A stretch of DNA of 64,000 nt from Aquisalinus luteolus (GTDB taxonomy: Bacteria; Pseudomonadota; Alphaproteobacteria; Caulobacterales; Parvularculaceae), in the NCBI RefSeq assembly GCF_009712425.2, contig NZ_VCJR02000001.1, forward strand, positions 1,182,001 to 1,246,000, read 5' to 3'. This document shows, one piece after another, positions 25,307 through 30,235 of this stretch. Both the position numbers and the translations under genes were made by a program. Under the pieces are notes generated by a model. The model saw nothing but the letters and a program-made list of their open reading frames with translations. It had not been told where the DNA came from and ran no database searches. The first letter of the stretch is position 1; the number at the start of each line of letters is the position of its first letter.

Positions 25307-25951
25307 ATGAAGAAGCATGCCTTTATCTTTACCGGCTTCAGCAAGAAAGTGTTGAGCCACAATGCTGAAAAGGTCGTAGCCCTGCTGAAGGAGCACGGCT
25401 TTACGGTCGACGTGTTTTCAGGGTCTCGGCTGAATATGCTCGTCAACAGCAGCCTGGAATTTCCCGAGGAGGGGAGCCTTCGCAAGCATGTAGAGGCTGA
25501 AACCGGCCGCAACGATTACACTATTGCCATCGGAGCATCAGGTGGCGGATATGGCGGATTGATGCACAGTATCTATGCTGGCGCGTCATGCTTCATCGGG
25601 TTTTCGTCCTTTACCAATGTGAGCCTTGCCAGCAGGGAGATCGATCCGCGCGGTGCGCAGATACTTGGGGTGATGGATGAGGTGATCCTTGACGACAGCC
25701 GGCGTGATCTGGGTGTCCATATGGACGAACAGAAGCCGAAACTGAACGTTCACTTGTATTATCCAAAGGGCGAGCCGAGCGACACATACCAGGCGGAAAA
25801 CCTGAAACGGTTCGAGAATGTAAAGCTGCATCCTCAGGACTCCTCAAAGCATAACATGACGGATATTTCGTTCGATGTTATCCCGGCGATCCTGTCCATT
25901 CTTCAGGCTGAAGGGGTGGCAGAGGAAAGAAAATTGGTGCCGTCCGAATAA
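25307..25951 (+). CDS. Alpha/beta-hydrolase-like protein of unknown function
   Basis: A 214-residue protein with no signal peptide. An early strand HAFIFTGFS and a central nucleophile-elbow-like motif, [12 protein letters not shown] with Ser78, suggest an alpha/beta-hydrolase fold of the type seen in small esterases or in Asp2-like/glycan-acetylation proteins. [18 protein letters not shown] and [29 protein letters not shown] could hold the acid; a C-terminal [10 protein letters not shown] histidine may complete a triad. These assignments are inference. The start has a G-rich stretch (GTGGGGGTCC) upstream. A strong terminator follows. Confidence 0.6.
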
Positions 25952-27140: not shown

Positions 27141-28901
27141 ATGGCAGACACTGAAGGGTCCCCGGGCCAGCAGGACCCCACCGGCCAGAGCCCGACCGAC
27201 CCATACGCGCGACGGGAGCAGACATTTCCTGTCCTGACGTACGAGCAGATCGACCGCATCCGCCCCTATGGTTCTGTCGAGAAGGTGGAGAAGGGCGCTG
27301 CCTTGTTTACCCGCGGCGACCGCACGGTCGATTTCTTCGTCATGCTGTCAGGCGAGGTCGAGATTTTCGATGATCAGGGGCGGGGCGATGACCATGTCTT
27401 CACCCGCCATGGCCGCCATCAATTTACTGGCGAGCTTGACCTGTTCAATGACCGGAAGGTCCTGGTTTCCGGCCGCATGGGCGAGGATGGCGAGGTTCTG
27501 CGCCTGAACCGCGAGAAATTCCGCGAGATGATGACGGCGCTGCCGGACCTCGCCGAGATCATCATGCGGGCTTTCATCCTGCGCCATGTCGCGCTGATGG
27601 AGCATGAGCAGGGCGCGGTCATTGTCATCGGCAACAAGGGCGCGAGCCAGATGCTGCAGATCGAGCGTTTCCTGCGCCGCAATGGCTATCCGGTGAAGGT
27701 GCTGACGCTGGAGGAGAACGACGCCGAGACCGAACCGGTAATGCGGGGCCTGAACCTGTCGCCGCAATGCCTGCCGGTCGTCATCGGCAAGGGCGACTCC
27801 ATGATCCGTCACCCAAGCCTGCTGGAGCTTGGCCATTTCCTCGGCATCAGCCATGAGTTCAAGGACGACGAGATCTACGACACGGCGGTGATCGGCGGCG
27901 GGCCGTCCGGGCTGGCGGCGGCGGTCTATGCCGCCTCCGAGGGGCTGTCGACGCTGATCGTGGAGGATATGGCGCCGGGCGGGCAGGCGGGGACATCCTC
28001 CAAGATCGAGAACTATCTCGGCTTCCCCACCGGCATATCCGGTCAGGCGCTGGCGGGGCGGGCCTTCGTGCAGGCGCAGAAATTCGGCGCGGTCATGGCC
28101 GTGCCATACTGTGTGAAGGCGCTGCATTGCGACGATCATCCCTATACGATCGAAATGGAAAGCGGCGAAAGGGTGCAGGCCCGTACGGTAGTGATCGCGT
28201 CCGGCGCCAGCTATCGCTCCATGGATGTCGACAATCTGTCGGACTATGACGGCCAGAACGTGCATTACGCGGCAACGGCGCTGGAGGCGCGTCTGTGTAC
28301 GGACACCGAGGTCGTCGTCATCGGCGGCGGCAATTCCGCCGGGCAGGCGGCGGTCTATCTCGCCCAGCATTCGAAACATGTGCACATGCTGGTGCGCCGG
28401 GCAGACGTCGCCGACACGATGTCGGACTATCTCGTCGGGCGGATCAAGGCCTCTTCCGGCATCACGCTCTATGAGAATACGGAGCTTTGCCATATCGAGG
28501 GCGACGAGGCGTTACGACAAGCTGAGTGGAAGCATCGTAAAACGGGCGAGGTCACGACCCGGGATATCGGCCACATCTTCCTGATGATCGGCGCCGTGCC
28601 GAACACGGCGTGGGTGGAAGGCTGCCTCGCCCTCGACGAAAAAGGCTTCATCATCACCGGGCGCGATGCGGGCATTGCATGGGAGAAGATCAAGGGGGGC
28701 GAGGCGTGCGAACGCCAGCCCTTTACGTTCGAATCCTCACGGCCCGGCATCTTCGCCGTCGGCGATGTGCGCTCGCAATCGGTCAAGCGGGTCGCTTCGG
28801 CGGTGGGCGAGGGCTCTGTCTGCGTCTCCGATATTCACAAGGTGCTGGCGGAGCTGCGCACGAAGCGGGCTGAAGCCGAGCCGGAAAAAGAGACTGCATG
28901 A
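27141..28901 (+). CDS. Cyclic-nucleotide-binding / thioredoxin-reductase-like FAD oxidoreductase fusion
   Basis: A 586-residue, three-part protein. Residues about 30-140 are a cyclic-nucleotide-binding (CAP_ED) domain (GAALFTRGDRTVDFFVMLSGEVEIF, FTGELDLFN). Residues about 155-230 look like a thioredoxin-fold segment (VIVIGNKGASQMLQIERFLRRNGY) without a CxxC. Residues about 245-570 are a thioredoxin-reductase-type flavoprotein: FAD motif GGGPSG (252-257), GGQAGTSSKIENYLGFP, NAD(P) motif GGGNSAG (395-401), FAVGDVR. The redox CATC of true thioredoxin reductase is replaced by AATA at 377-380, so disulphide reduction by the usual route is not possible. Such fusions are known in actinobacteria and proteobacteria but their role is unclear. 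AGGAGAG precedes the ATG; the stop overlaps the methyltransferase start. Confidence 0.9.
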   Translation: MADTEGSPGQQDPTGQSPTDPYARREQTFPVLTYEQIDRIRPYGSVEKVEKGAALFTRGDRTVDFFVMLSGEVEIFDDQGRGDDHVFTRHGRHQFTGELDLFNDRKVLVSGRMGEDGEVLRLNREKFREMMTALPDLAEIIMRAFILRHVALMEHEQGAVIVIGNKGASQMLQIERFLRRNGYPVKVLTLEENDAETEPVMRGLNLSPQCLPVVIGKGDSMIRHPSLLELGHFLGISHEFKDDEIYDTAVIGGGPSGLAAAVYAASEGLSTLIVEDMAPGGQAGTSSKIENYLGFPTGISGQALAGRAFVQAQKFGAVMAVPYCVKALHCDDHPYTIEMESGERVQARTVVIASGASYRSMDVDNLSDYDGQNVHYAATALEARLCTDTEVVVIGGGNSAGQAAVYLAQHSKHVHMLVRRADVADTMSDYLVGRIKASSGITLYENTELCHIEGDEALRQAEWKHRKTGEVTTRDIGHIFLMIGAVPNTAWVEGCLALDEKGFIITGRDAGIAWEKIKGGEACERQPFTFESSRPGIFAVGDVRSQSVKRVASAVGEGSVCVSDIHKVLAELRTKRAEAEPEKETA

Positions 28902-29509
28902 GCGAAGCTGAATCGGAAGACCGCAAGCCCGTCGACTGGGAGGAGCGCTTCAAGGCAGACGATGCGCCATGGGAGCGGGGCGAGCTGCACCCGGCCTTCA
29001 CGATGTGGCTCGACGCCGGTCTGATTGCTTCTGGAAAATCCGTCTATGTGCCCGGCTGCGGGCGCTCGCTCGAGCCGCTGGCCTTTGCCAGTCTCGGGCT
29101 GGAGGTGAGCGCGGTTGATTATGCGTCGAGCGCCATCGTCTGGCAGTGGACGCAGTTCAAGGCGGCCGGGCTGACCGGCACCCTCGTCACCGGCGATGCA
29201 CTGGCCTTCCGCCCTGACAGCCCCGTTGATCTCTATTACGAGCAGACGTTTCTCTGCGCGATCCACCCGAGCAAGCGTGAAGAGTATGAGAAAGCTGCGT
29301 TCGAGCAGATCGCCCCCGGCGGCCATCTGCTCGCCCTGTTCATGCAGAAGGAAGAGCGCGGCGGCCCGCCCTATGGCTGCGACATGGATGAAATGAGGGC
29401 GCTGTTCGGGGAGGAGAGCTGGGCGTGGCCTGATGCAGAGCCGCAGGCTTTCCCGCACCCCAGCCTAGGCGGCAAGGCGGAACTGGCCGTGGCGCTGAAA
29501 AGGAAATAG
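28898..29509 (+). CDS. TPMT-family SAM-dependent methyltransferase
   Basis: A 203-residue methyltransferase of the thiopurine S-methyltransferase family (PF05724). DWEERFKADDAPWERGELHPAF at the start, the SAM-binding VYVPGCGRSLEPLAFASLGLEVSAVDYA, YYEQTFLCAIHPSKREEY and GGPPYGCDMDEM are family features; bacterial members also include halide, selenium or tellurium methylases, so the substrate is open. It overlaps the oxidoreductase fusion by 4 bases (ATGA), so the two are co-translated and may act on the same stress. Confidence 0.9.
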   Translation: MSEAESEDRKPVDWEERFKADDAPWERGELHPAFTMWLDAGLIASGKSVYVPGCGRSLEPLAFASLGLEVSAVDYASSAIVWQWTQFKAAGLTGTLVTGDALAFRPDSPVDLYYEQTFLCAIHPSKREEYEKAAFEQIAPGGHLLALFMQKEERGGPPYGCDMDEMRALFGEESWAWPDAEPQAFPHPSLGGKAELAVALKRK

Positions 29510-29563: not shown

Positions 29564-30235
29564 ATGCGTATTCCGGCCTTGATTGCTCTATTTGCTTTTT
29601 TCACCTTTCCGATGGCTCATGCCGGAGATCATCTCGAGCCTGTGGGTTCTATCTATAACCCTAAGTGGCATGACGAGTACGGTAATCTCATCCGGCAGTC
29701 TCTTTCGCCAGCAATTTCTGATAGATATGTTTTTGCTACTGCGCTGGTTATCCCCTCATTCTCCGAGGAATTCGCCGTCAGCATAAAAATGTCCGGAGGC
29801 GACTATTCGATCGTCGGTGCCACACCGGAAAAGCAGATATGGATCGACTATCGTGAGGCGCTGGGGGAAAGAGAAGAATTGAATGAATCGCTGCCTGAGA
29901 TCCCGATCATAAGCTGTGAGGTGCCTCTCTCGCCGGATATGGGATCGCGTTTGCTGGATGTCTGGTTTGAAATGCTTCGCCGGACGAAGTATCCCTATGA
30001 CGACAAGCTTGAACCACCTCATGTAGGGCTTGATGGAACCAATTATCTATTCGCCATGAAAACCGGAAAAGGCATGGTCGGCACGACCCGTTCGCCTGAC
30101 GAGGCTACGAAACCGGGATATCTGGCAGAGATCGCACACAATCTCGCTGATTCCTGTTTTTCGGGCACCCAACCTTCGCTCAATATATTGGACCCGCTCG
30201 AAAAGCTGGAAGCGGCGTTGGCCTCGGACAATTAG
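29564..30235 (+). CDS. Secreted protein of unknown function
   Basis: A 223-residue protein with a clear Sec signal peptide (MRIPALIALFAFFTFPMAHA, cleavage after residue 20). The mature part has two cysteines (ISCEVPL, DSCFSGT) and no motif that I recognise; DVWFEMLRRTKYPYDDK and GTNYLFAMKTGKGMVG suggest a compact domain similar in feel to small periplasmic lipoprotein-like unknowns. It is A+T-richer than its neighbours and has a weak ribosome-binding site, both compatible with recent acquisition. It lies between the TPMT gene and gatB. Confidence 0.65.
   Translation: MRIPALIALFAFFTFPMAHAGDHLEPVGSIYNPKWHDEYGNLIRQSLSPAISDRYVFATALVIPSFSEEFAVSIKMSGGDYSIVGATPEKQIWIDYREALGEREELNESLPEIPIISCEVPLSPDMGSRLLDVWFEMLRRTKYPYDDKLEPPHVGLDGTNYLFAMKTGKGMVGTTRSPDEATKPGYLAEIAHNLADSCFSGTQPSLNILDPLEKLEAALASDN

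Follow-up and report, generated by a model that had tools for sequence, protein, structure and literature searches.

A thioredoxin-reductase-like flavoprotein family with a fused cyclic-nucleotide-binding-type domain and no CxxC at either redox site

What does a protein with the fold of a thioredoxin reductase (TrxR) do once the cysteine pair of that enzyme is gone? The question is raised by a 586-residue protein encoded in a 64,000-nucleotide stretch of the Aquisalinus luteolus genome (contig NZ_VCJR02000001.1, positions 1,182,001 to 1,246,000; hereafter the window). The open reading frame begins with ATG, is immediately preceded by the ribosome-binding site AGGAGAG, and encodes a cyclic-nucleotide-binding (CNB) domain, a redoxin-like domain and a FAD/NAD(P) flavoprotein core (Table 1). 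The gene is under purifying selection, with a dN/dS of 0.117 (NG86) against its same-genus orthologue L003. The same genome also encodes an ordinary TrxR with an intact CATC (G000:C1:829274-830197), and several relatives of the 586-residue protein (H49, H51, H147, H155, H158 and H163) bear the database name 'cyclic nucleotide-binding domain-containing thioredoxin-disulfide reductase'.

Table 1. Positions in the window of the flavoprotein gene, its parts and the overlapping downstream gene
Feature	Position	Strand	Basis and remarks
Whole gene	27141..28901	+	586 aa, CNB + mycoredoxin-like + TrxR-like flavoprotein; open reading frame, Pfam, AlphaFold2 mean pLDDT 89.0
CNB (CAP-like) domain, residues 30-156	27228..27608	+	Pfam; structural Z 15.4, 124 aligned; residue 107 (phosphate-Arg position by profile alignments) is Val
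Glutaredoxin/mycoredoxin-type domain, residues 158-240	27612..27860	+	AlphaFold2 topology; 2lqo E 2.7e-5; CxxC site now ASQM (168-171)
TrxR-like FAD/NAD(P) core, residues 245-572	27873..28856	+	Pfam; 5mh4 Z 36.1, rmsd 1.8, 302 aligned
AATA, residues 377-380, replacing CATC	28269..28280	+	Alignment with TrxRs and family
Glu382, column of the TrxR Asp after CATC	28284..28286	+	Glu 135, Asp 1 of 136
Cys386, near-invariant lone cysteine	28296..28298	+	Cys 132/136; Tyr in 11/11 TrxRs
TPMT-like methyltransferase gene, 4-bp overlap	28898..29509	+	PF05724; lineage-specific neighbour, 2/123 loci

The outer two domains are assigned by Pfam, with cNMP_binding at residues 47-131 (53.8 bits, cut-off 27.5) and Pyr_redox_2 at residues 246-558 (111.7 bits, cut-off 26.1). 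An AlphaFold2 model built on an alignment of 78 sequences reached a pTM of 0.87, and its front domain superposes on Vfr/CAP with an rmsd of 2.5. The three-part build proposed in a preliminary description of this locus, made from the sequence, therefore stands, except that the segment it called a thioredoxin fold is of glutaredoxin/mycoredoxin type. In the model the order of strands and helices in this middle domain is that of glutaredoxin, and the proline preceding its third strand (Pro212) is kept in 78/78 sequences. The best PDB match of the family profile is mycoredoxin-1, and a mycoredoxin model was matched by 50 of 76 members at E<=1 (best 1e-6), although the middle domain of the 586-residue protein searched alone matched no family model. 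Since a structural fold search with the N-terminal half returned CNB structures, the fold of the middle domain is assigned from topology and profiles, and its absence from the structures listed carries no weight.

Public genomes of bacteria and archaea contain at least 590 places that code for a relative. The members compared here number 136 with the 586-residue protein included, although identical proteins may recur between the sets: 43 were drawn from relatives and from a sample across the phylum (46 full-length places, of which these 43 had a locus given), 77 from named public genomes (the best 80 of the at least 590 places, three incomplete proteins having been dropped on alignment) and 16 from plasmids, added for breadth and drawn from 18 regions of which L152 and L174 were left out. 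One further alignment (A4) held 76 of the 78 rows. The 586-residue protein has all three traits that define the family, namely a CNB domain with a redoxin-like domain and a TrxR-like core, the lack of CxxC, and Glu/Asp382 with Arg419.

In a single alignment the CATC column reads A-A-T-A in the 586-residue protein and CATC in 11/11 ordinary TrxRs, as the preliminary description had stated. Its statement that the thioredoxin-like part has no CxxC is likewise borne out, and the loss extends throughout the group: none of the 136 proteins has CxxC at either the CATC site or the mycoredoxin site, where a cysteine at position 168 is found in 5/78. The 586-residue protein has no CxxC anywhere despite its eight cysteines; four members (L056, L083, L006 and that of D. 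aquaticus) have one at other positions. A displaced redox pair common to all members was considered and rejected, because the candidate columns are patchy and two members have a single cysteine. Columns 216/233 hold two cysteines in 35 of 78 sequences, one in 10 and none in 33, the 586-residue protein having cysteine at neither; for columns 330/495 the corresponding numbers are 65, 7 and 6. Each pair tends to co-vary and may represent a lineage-specific disulphide, although kinship may account for the pattern. The L133 protein has a lone cysteine in 548 residues and the D. aetherius protein a lone cysteine at a position other than 386, which excludes an intramolecular dithiol for those two.

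What the family has kept is an acid at position 382 and Arg419, each in 136/136, which suggests that chemistry has been retained. The retention of Cys386 suggests a role for this thiol in most members. Cys386 was invariant in 78/78 and 43/43, but in the plasmid set (17 rows) it is missing from four proteins, two of Deinococcus and one each of Streptomyces and Paraburkholderia. Since these four, D. aetherius included, lack it, Cys386 is not essential in every member.

The preliminary description had also suggested that the protein may be nucleotide-gated. The CNB fold stands, but gating by a cyclic nucleotide is doubtful on the residues at the expected phosphate site. Gap-free profile alignments to the CNB domains of cGMP-dependent protein kinase place the phosphate-binding arginine on residue 107, which is arginine in 0/78 and 0/43 sequences and in one row of the plasmid set, though Arg105, two residues earlier, is present in 55/78 and single-sequence alignments disagree on where the arginine falls. 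Structural alignment lays residues 33-156 of the model onto residues 7-131 of CAP, and the phosphate arginine of CAP, Arg82, falls near residues 107-108. Elsewhere in the genome a 790-residue open frame has a weak, partial match to the adenylate/guanylate cyclase family PF00211 (G000:C1:1693717-1693998; 22.9 bits, cut-off 21.9).

By predicted domain content, the front end is swappable among relatives, being a CNB domain, a receiver or absent. Among the 16 plasmid members, 10 of which were covered by Pfam, a receiver forms the front end in four (Nostoc edaphicum, Caballeronia sp. NK8, D. aetherius and S. fungicidicus) and no input domain is present in three (R. qingshengii, Cupriavidus sp. P-10 and P. 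dioscoreae); in Streptomyces sp. NBC_01176 the CNB domain is matched below the Pfam cut-off (24.3 against 27.5). In three of the four receiver forms, all but that of Nostoc, a gene coding for a CNB domain with HATPase_c follows directly with a 4-bp overlap; no HisKA domain was reported in these kinase-like proteins. We read this arrangement as one output core that may take its input from a CNB domain either fused to it or placed in a kinase that signals through a receiver. Response-regulator genes also lie around CNB-form flavoprotein genes in Methylobacterium sp. NMS14P (L167) and Paroceanicella profunda (L146), the former with a hybrid histidine kinase gene nearby as well.

Comparison with known systems places the core close to low-Mr thioredoxin reductases, which share its fold and its FAD and NAD(P) motifs, whereas the 586-residue protein lacks CATC, has two extra N-terminal domains and scores 209.2 bits against TIGR01292, the low-Mr TrxR model, below the cut-off of 343.45. 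Of the HRRxxxR motif described for low-Mr TrxRs in the accessible part of PMC8564101, only Arg419 is invariant in the family, which would fit the use of NADH besides NADPH. AhpF resembles the protein in having a redoxin-fold part ahead of a TrxR-like core (448-475 columns in Foldseek alignments), but has a cysteine pair in both parts according to the available text of PMC8945050, where this family has neither. The TrxR-like ferredoxin/flavodoxin NADP+ reductases (FNRs) are alike in having a TrxR fold without CxxC (PMC10294844 and PMC8564101, both in excerpt). However, the 586-residue protein is much nearer to TrxRs (3.6e-41, where the best of the FNRs gives 1e-15) and has a fused signal domain. 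Its alignment to FNR2 (8c16) stops at residue 321 of that structure, before residue 326, leaving the C-terminal FAD-stacking part of FNRs outside the aligned region. The middle domain resembles mycoredoxin-1 and glutaredoxin by profile, but has lost their CxxC, its ASQM being neither CxxC nor CxxS. The response regulators that join a receiver to a thioredoxin reductase, termed 'Mycobacterium-like' in the portion of PMC5847659 consulted, combine a signal domain with a TrxR-like part as the receiver forms here do, whereas the 586-residue protein carries a CNB domain.

The TrxR structures compared include flavin-reducing (FR) and flavin-oxidising (FO) forms. The model of the 586-residue protein fits FR forms (5mh4, for which the rmsd was 1.8, and the complex 1f6m, 2.1) better than FO forms (5mjk 6.9, 7aaw 6.3 and 5w4c 4.9), a preference drawn from one prediction without cofactor or an ordinary-TrxR control and with form labels taken partly from PMC8564101 as excerpted. 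For an enzyme lacking a dithiol, the flavin-oxidising state is superfluous.

An assayed relative is ATII-TrxR, which has 552 residues with a CNB domain and a TrxR core and shares 87% identity with a protein of Cupriavidus metallidurans. According to the accessible portion of PMC6544261, it reduces thioredoxin (Km 1.03 uM, kcat 28.4/s) and DTNB (5.63/s) with NADPH or NADH as donor, has an optimum at 65 C and is active in 4 M NaCl; its authors marked the redox centres Cys206-Cys223 and Cys376-Cys467 on a predicted model. It is alike to the 586-residue protein in joining a CNB domain to a FAD/NAD(P) core. The relative in C. metallidurans CH34 has cysteine spacings of 17 and 170, and by this spacing Cys206, Cys223 and Cys376 of ATII-TrxR would fall on columns 216, 233 and 386, although the CH34 gene is perhaps another one and Cys467 is unmatched; the columns that would correspond to Cys206 and Cys223 are not cysteine in the 586-residue protein. 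Should the assay be correct, either Cys386 may take part in reducing disulphides or some of the members use other cysteines. Thioredoxin reduction, which the preliminary description had named as evidence against its reading, has thus been reported in the available text of PMC6544261, for another protein of the same architecture. The conclusion that the protein cannot be a standard disulphide reductase accordingly holds as regards the absent dithiol centre, but is too strong on activity, and disulphide reduction by the 586-residue protein is not declared impossible here.

The gene neighbourhood was a further source of evidence. The TPMT-like gene, described earlier as co-translated, overlaps the flavoprotein gene by ATGA (28898-28901), and its product matches Pfam TPMT at 85.9 bits (cut-off 26), although against the true thiopurine methyltransferase model it scores 43.7 bits, below the cut-off of 223.2. 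As a conserved partner it was rejected: the neighbour was found at this locus and that of the same-genus orthologue among the 123 loci, in a tblastn search with the locus's own protein, which remote TPMT homologues could escape. Two other nearby open frames, 25307-25951 (214 aa) and 29564-30235 (223 aa), matched no Pfam or NCBIfam family at E<=0.001. The consensus of a general-stress EcfG-type promoter was found in 0/124 upstream regions, against a mean of 2.46 in shuffles and 2 on the reverse strand.

A small gene for a zinc finger of UBP type (zf-UBP) is the recurrent neighbour. It was found at at least 31 of the 123 loci and within 500 bp at at least 29, these counts being lower bounds since the flanks at many loci extend no further than 1.5 kb; of the 29 close genes, 24 are on the same strand, and the gene may lie before or after the flavoprotein gene. 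By record titles, the linked loci belong to alpha-, beta- and gammaproteobacteria, Bdellovibrionaceae, myxobacteria and acidobacteria, and also include actinobacterial plasmids. An apparent zf-UBP fusion in L111 was discarded, as the zf-UBP sequence lies in another frame of an over-extended open frame and is hence a neighbour.

In the phylum sample, zf-UBP is rare, occurring in 10 of 299 genomes, every one of which belongs to the 29 that have a full-length flavoprotein (E<1e-100), and nine of the ten pairs are no more than 460 bp apart. The co-occurrence has a p of 1.5e-11 by genome, a value that treats related genomes as independent while 6 of the 10 zf-UBP genomes are of one genus, and of 3.0e-6 by genus; the 29 flavoprotein genomes and the 14 genera were counted by eye. 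In the class sample, zf-UBP was found in 9 of 385 genomes, A. luteolus included, and the eight further genomes all have the flavoprotein, seven with the pair within about 1.3 kb and one (G500) with zf-UBP on another contig. The flavoprotein is thus present in 18/18 of the zf-UBP genomes found. The reverse does not hold, as zf-UBP is missing from 19 of the 29 genomes that have the flavoprotein. In A. luteolus the zf-UBP gene lies about 100 kb from the flavoprotein gene, and so outside the reach of the preliminary description, and the link in this genome rests on the family. A functional link to zf-UBP is probable with good confidence at the level of the family, and stands at about even chances in this organism. 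The zf-UBP domain is otherwise known for binding ubiquitin tails.

Individual loci show further company. On a Rhodococcus sp. PD04 plasmid (L148), grpE, a J-domain gene, cbpM, clpB, trxA, zf-UBP and the flavoprotein gene lie on one strand as a heat-shock cluster. In Streptomyces fungicidicus (L173:3548-7031), the receiver-flavoprotein, CNB-HATPase_c and zf-UBP genes follow one another with successive 4-bp overlaps, and in Paraburkholderia dioscoreae (L172:5618-8452) a gene for a Clp-type ATPase points towards those of the core-only flavoprotein and zf-UBP. A second context for zf-UBP is under annotated cation:proton antiporters on two Deinococcus plasmids (H106 and H112).

We tentatively favour the explanation that the protein, a flavoprotein of TrxR fold, uses NAD(P)H under the control of a signal and needs no dithiol for its reaction. 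Taken separately, a dithiol-independent core is highly probable and a role as regulated effector rather likely. NAD(P)H would reduce FAD in the FR arrangement, Glu382 may aid proton transfer, and electrons would pass from the flavin directly to a docked partner, perhaps helped by Cys386 where it is present. The cysteine-less mycoredoxin-like domain would serve as an adaptor and the N-terminal domain as a switch, with the zf-UBP protein as the first candidate partner. Against this explanation as a whole stand the near-universal Cys386, the 19 flavoprotein genomes that lack zf-UBP, the separation of the two genes in A. luteolus and G500, and the reported reduction of thioredoxin and DTNB by ATII-TrxR (PMC6544261, in the part available). 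That activity leads to an alternative in which the family are genuine thioredoxin or disulphide reductases acting through cysteines outside the usual motifs, Cys386 being the main one. The near-universal presence of Cys386, the columns onto which Cys206, Cys223 and Cys376 of the active relative would fall, and the trxA gene adjoining zf-UBP and the flavoprotein gene in Rhodococcus sp. PD04 are all in its favour. However, neither redox site holds CxxC in any member, columns 216/233 are not cysteine in the 586-residue protein and are both or neither cysteine in similar numbers of relatives, the L133 protein has one cysteine in all and four members lack Cys386. Moreover, the redox centres of ATII-TrxR come from a predicted model, with no mutants in the accessible text of PMC6544261, and the A. 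luteolus genome already has an ordinary TrxR with CATC. We consider this alternative unlikely, if a serious one.

A further alternative is an NAD(P)H oxidase gated by the N-terminal domain, as the preliminary description suggested, or a likewise gated reductase of small molecules such as quinone, peroxide or flavin. It would agree with a core that has no cysteine pair yet keeps the acid and the NAD(P)/FAD motifs, and with the other acceptors reduced by CxxC-less TrxR-like FNRs in the excerpts of PMC10294844 and PMC8564101, but it leaves the retained mycoredoxin-like domain and the zf-UBP linkage unexplained, and we regard it as distinctly unlikely. A sensor without turnover, in which the input domain acts together with the state of FAD/NAD(P)H to set a conformation that a partner, for example the zf-UBP protein, reads, would account for the loss of both redox sites, the swapping of signal-type input domains and, as far as a prediction can suggest, the single arrangement of the model. 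The acid at 382 and Arg419, kept throughout, nevertheless suggest chemistry, and turnover is reported for ATII-TrxR (PMC6544261, as excerpted), which makes a pure sensor improbable to a marked degree. Beyond the preferred signal-gated flavoprotein, a wider reading can be sketched in which the family would be a widespread cysteine-independent redox signalling output, its core driven by a CNB domain (one-component) or by a CNB-bearing kinase and a receiver (two-component) and passing electrons or a conformation to the zf-UBP protein in a stress and protein-quality response; this is speculative and rather unlikely to hold in full.

The architecture is already known to annotation pipelines, an assay exists for one relative, and FNRs of TrxR fold without CxxC are described in the available parts of PMC10294844 and PMC8564101. 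What appears new is the combination of three features in a TrxR-like protein fused to a signal domain, namely that both redox pairs are lost across the family, that the input is swappable and that the gene is linked to zf-UBP; one open-access library returned no paper on the input swap or the missing cysteines, which does not imply absence from print. If the chemistry is dithiol-free, the thioredoxin-disulphide reductase names on some relatives mislead, and the TrxR fold has been turned to another use, a case besides FNRs. Two questions become testable through the swapped inputs and the linkage to zf-UBP, namely the role of bacterial zf-UBP proteins and the signal gating of a pyridine-nucleotide flavoenzyme. 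Among viral contigs, single-protein patterns gave 11 matches with no relative among them. Relatives extend to the archaea, with close ones in three records (Nitrososphaerales and Candidatus Nitrosocosmicus; L064, L076 and L079) showing 47-50% identity over the core.
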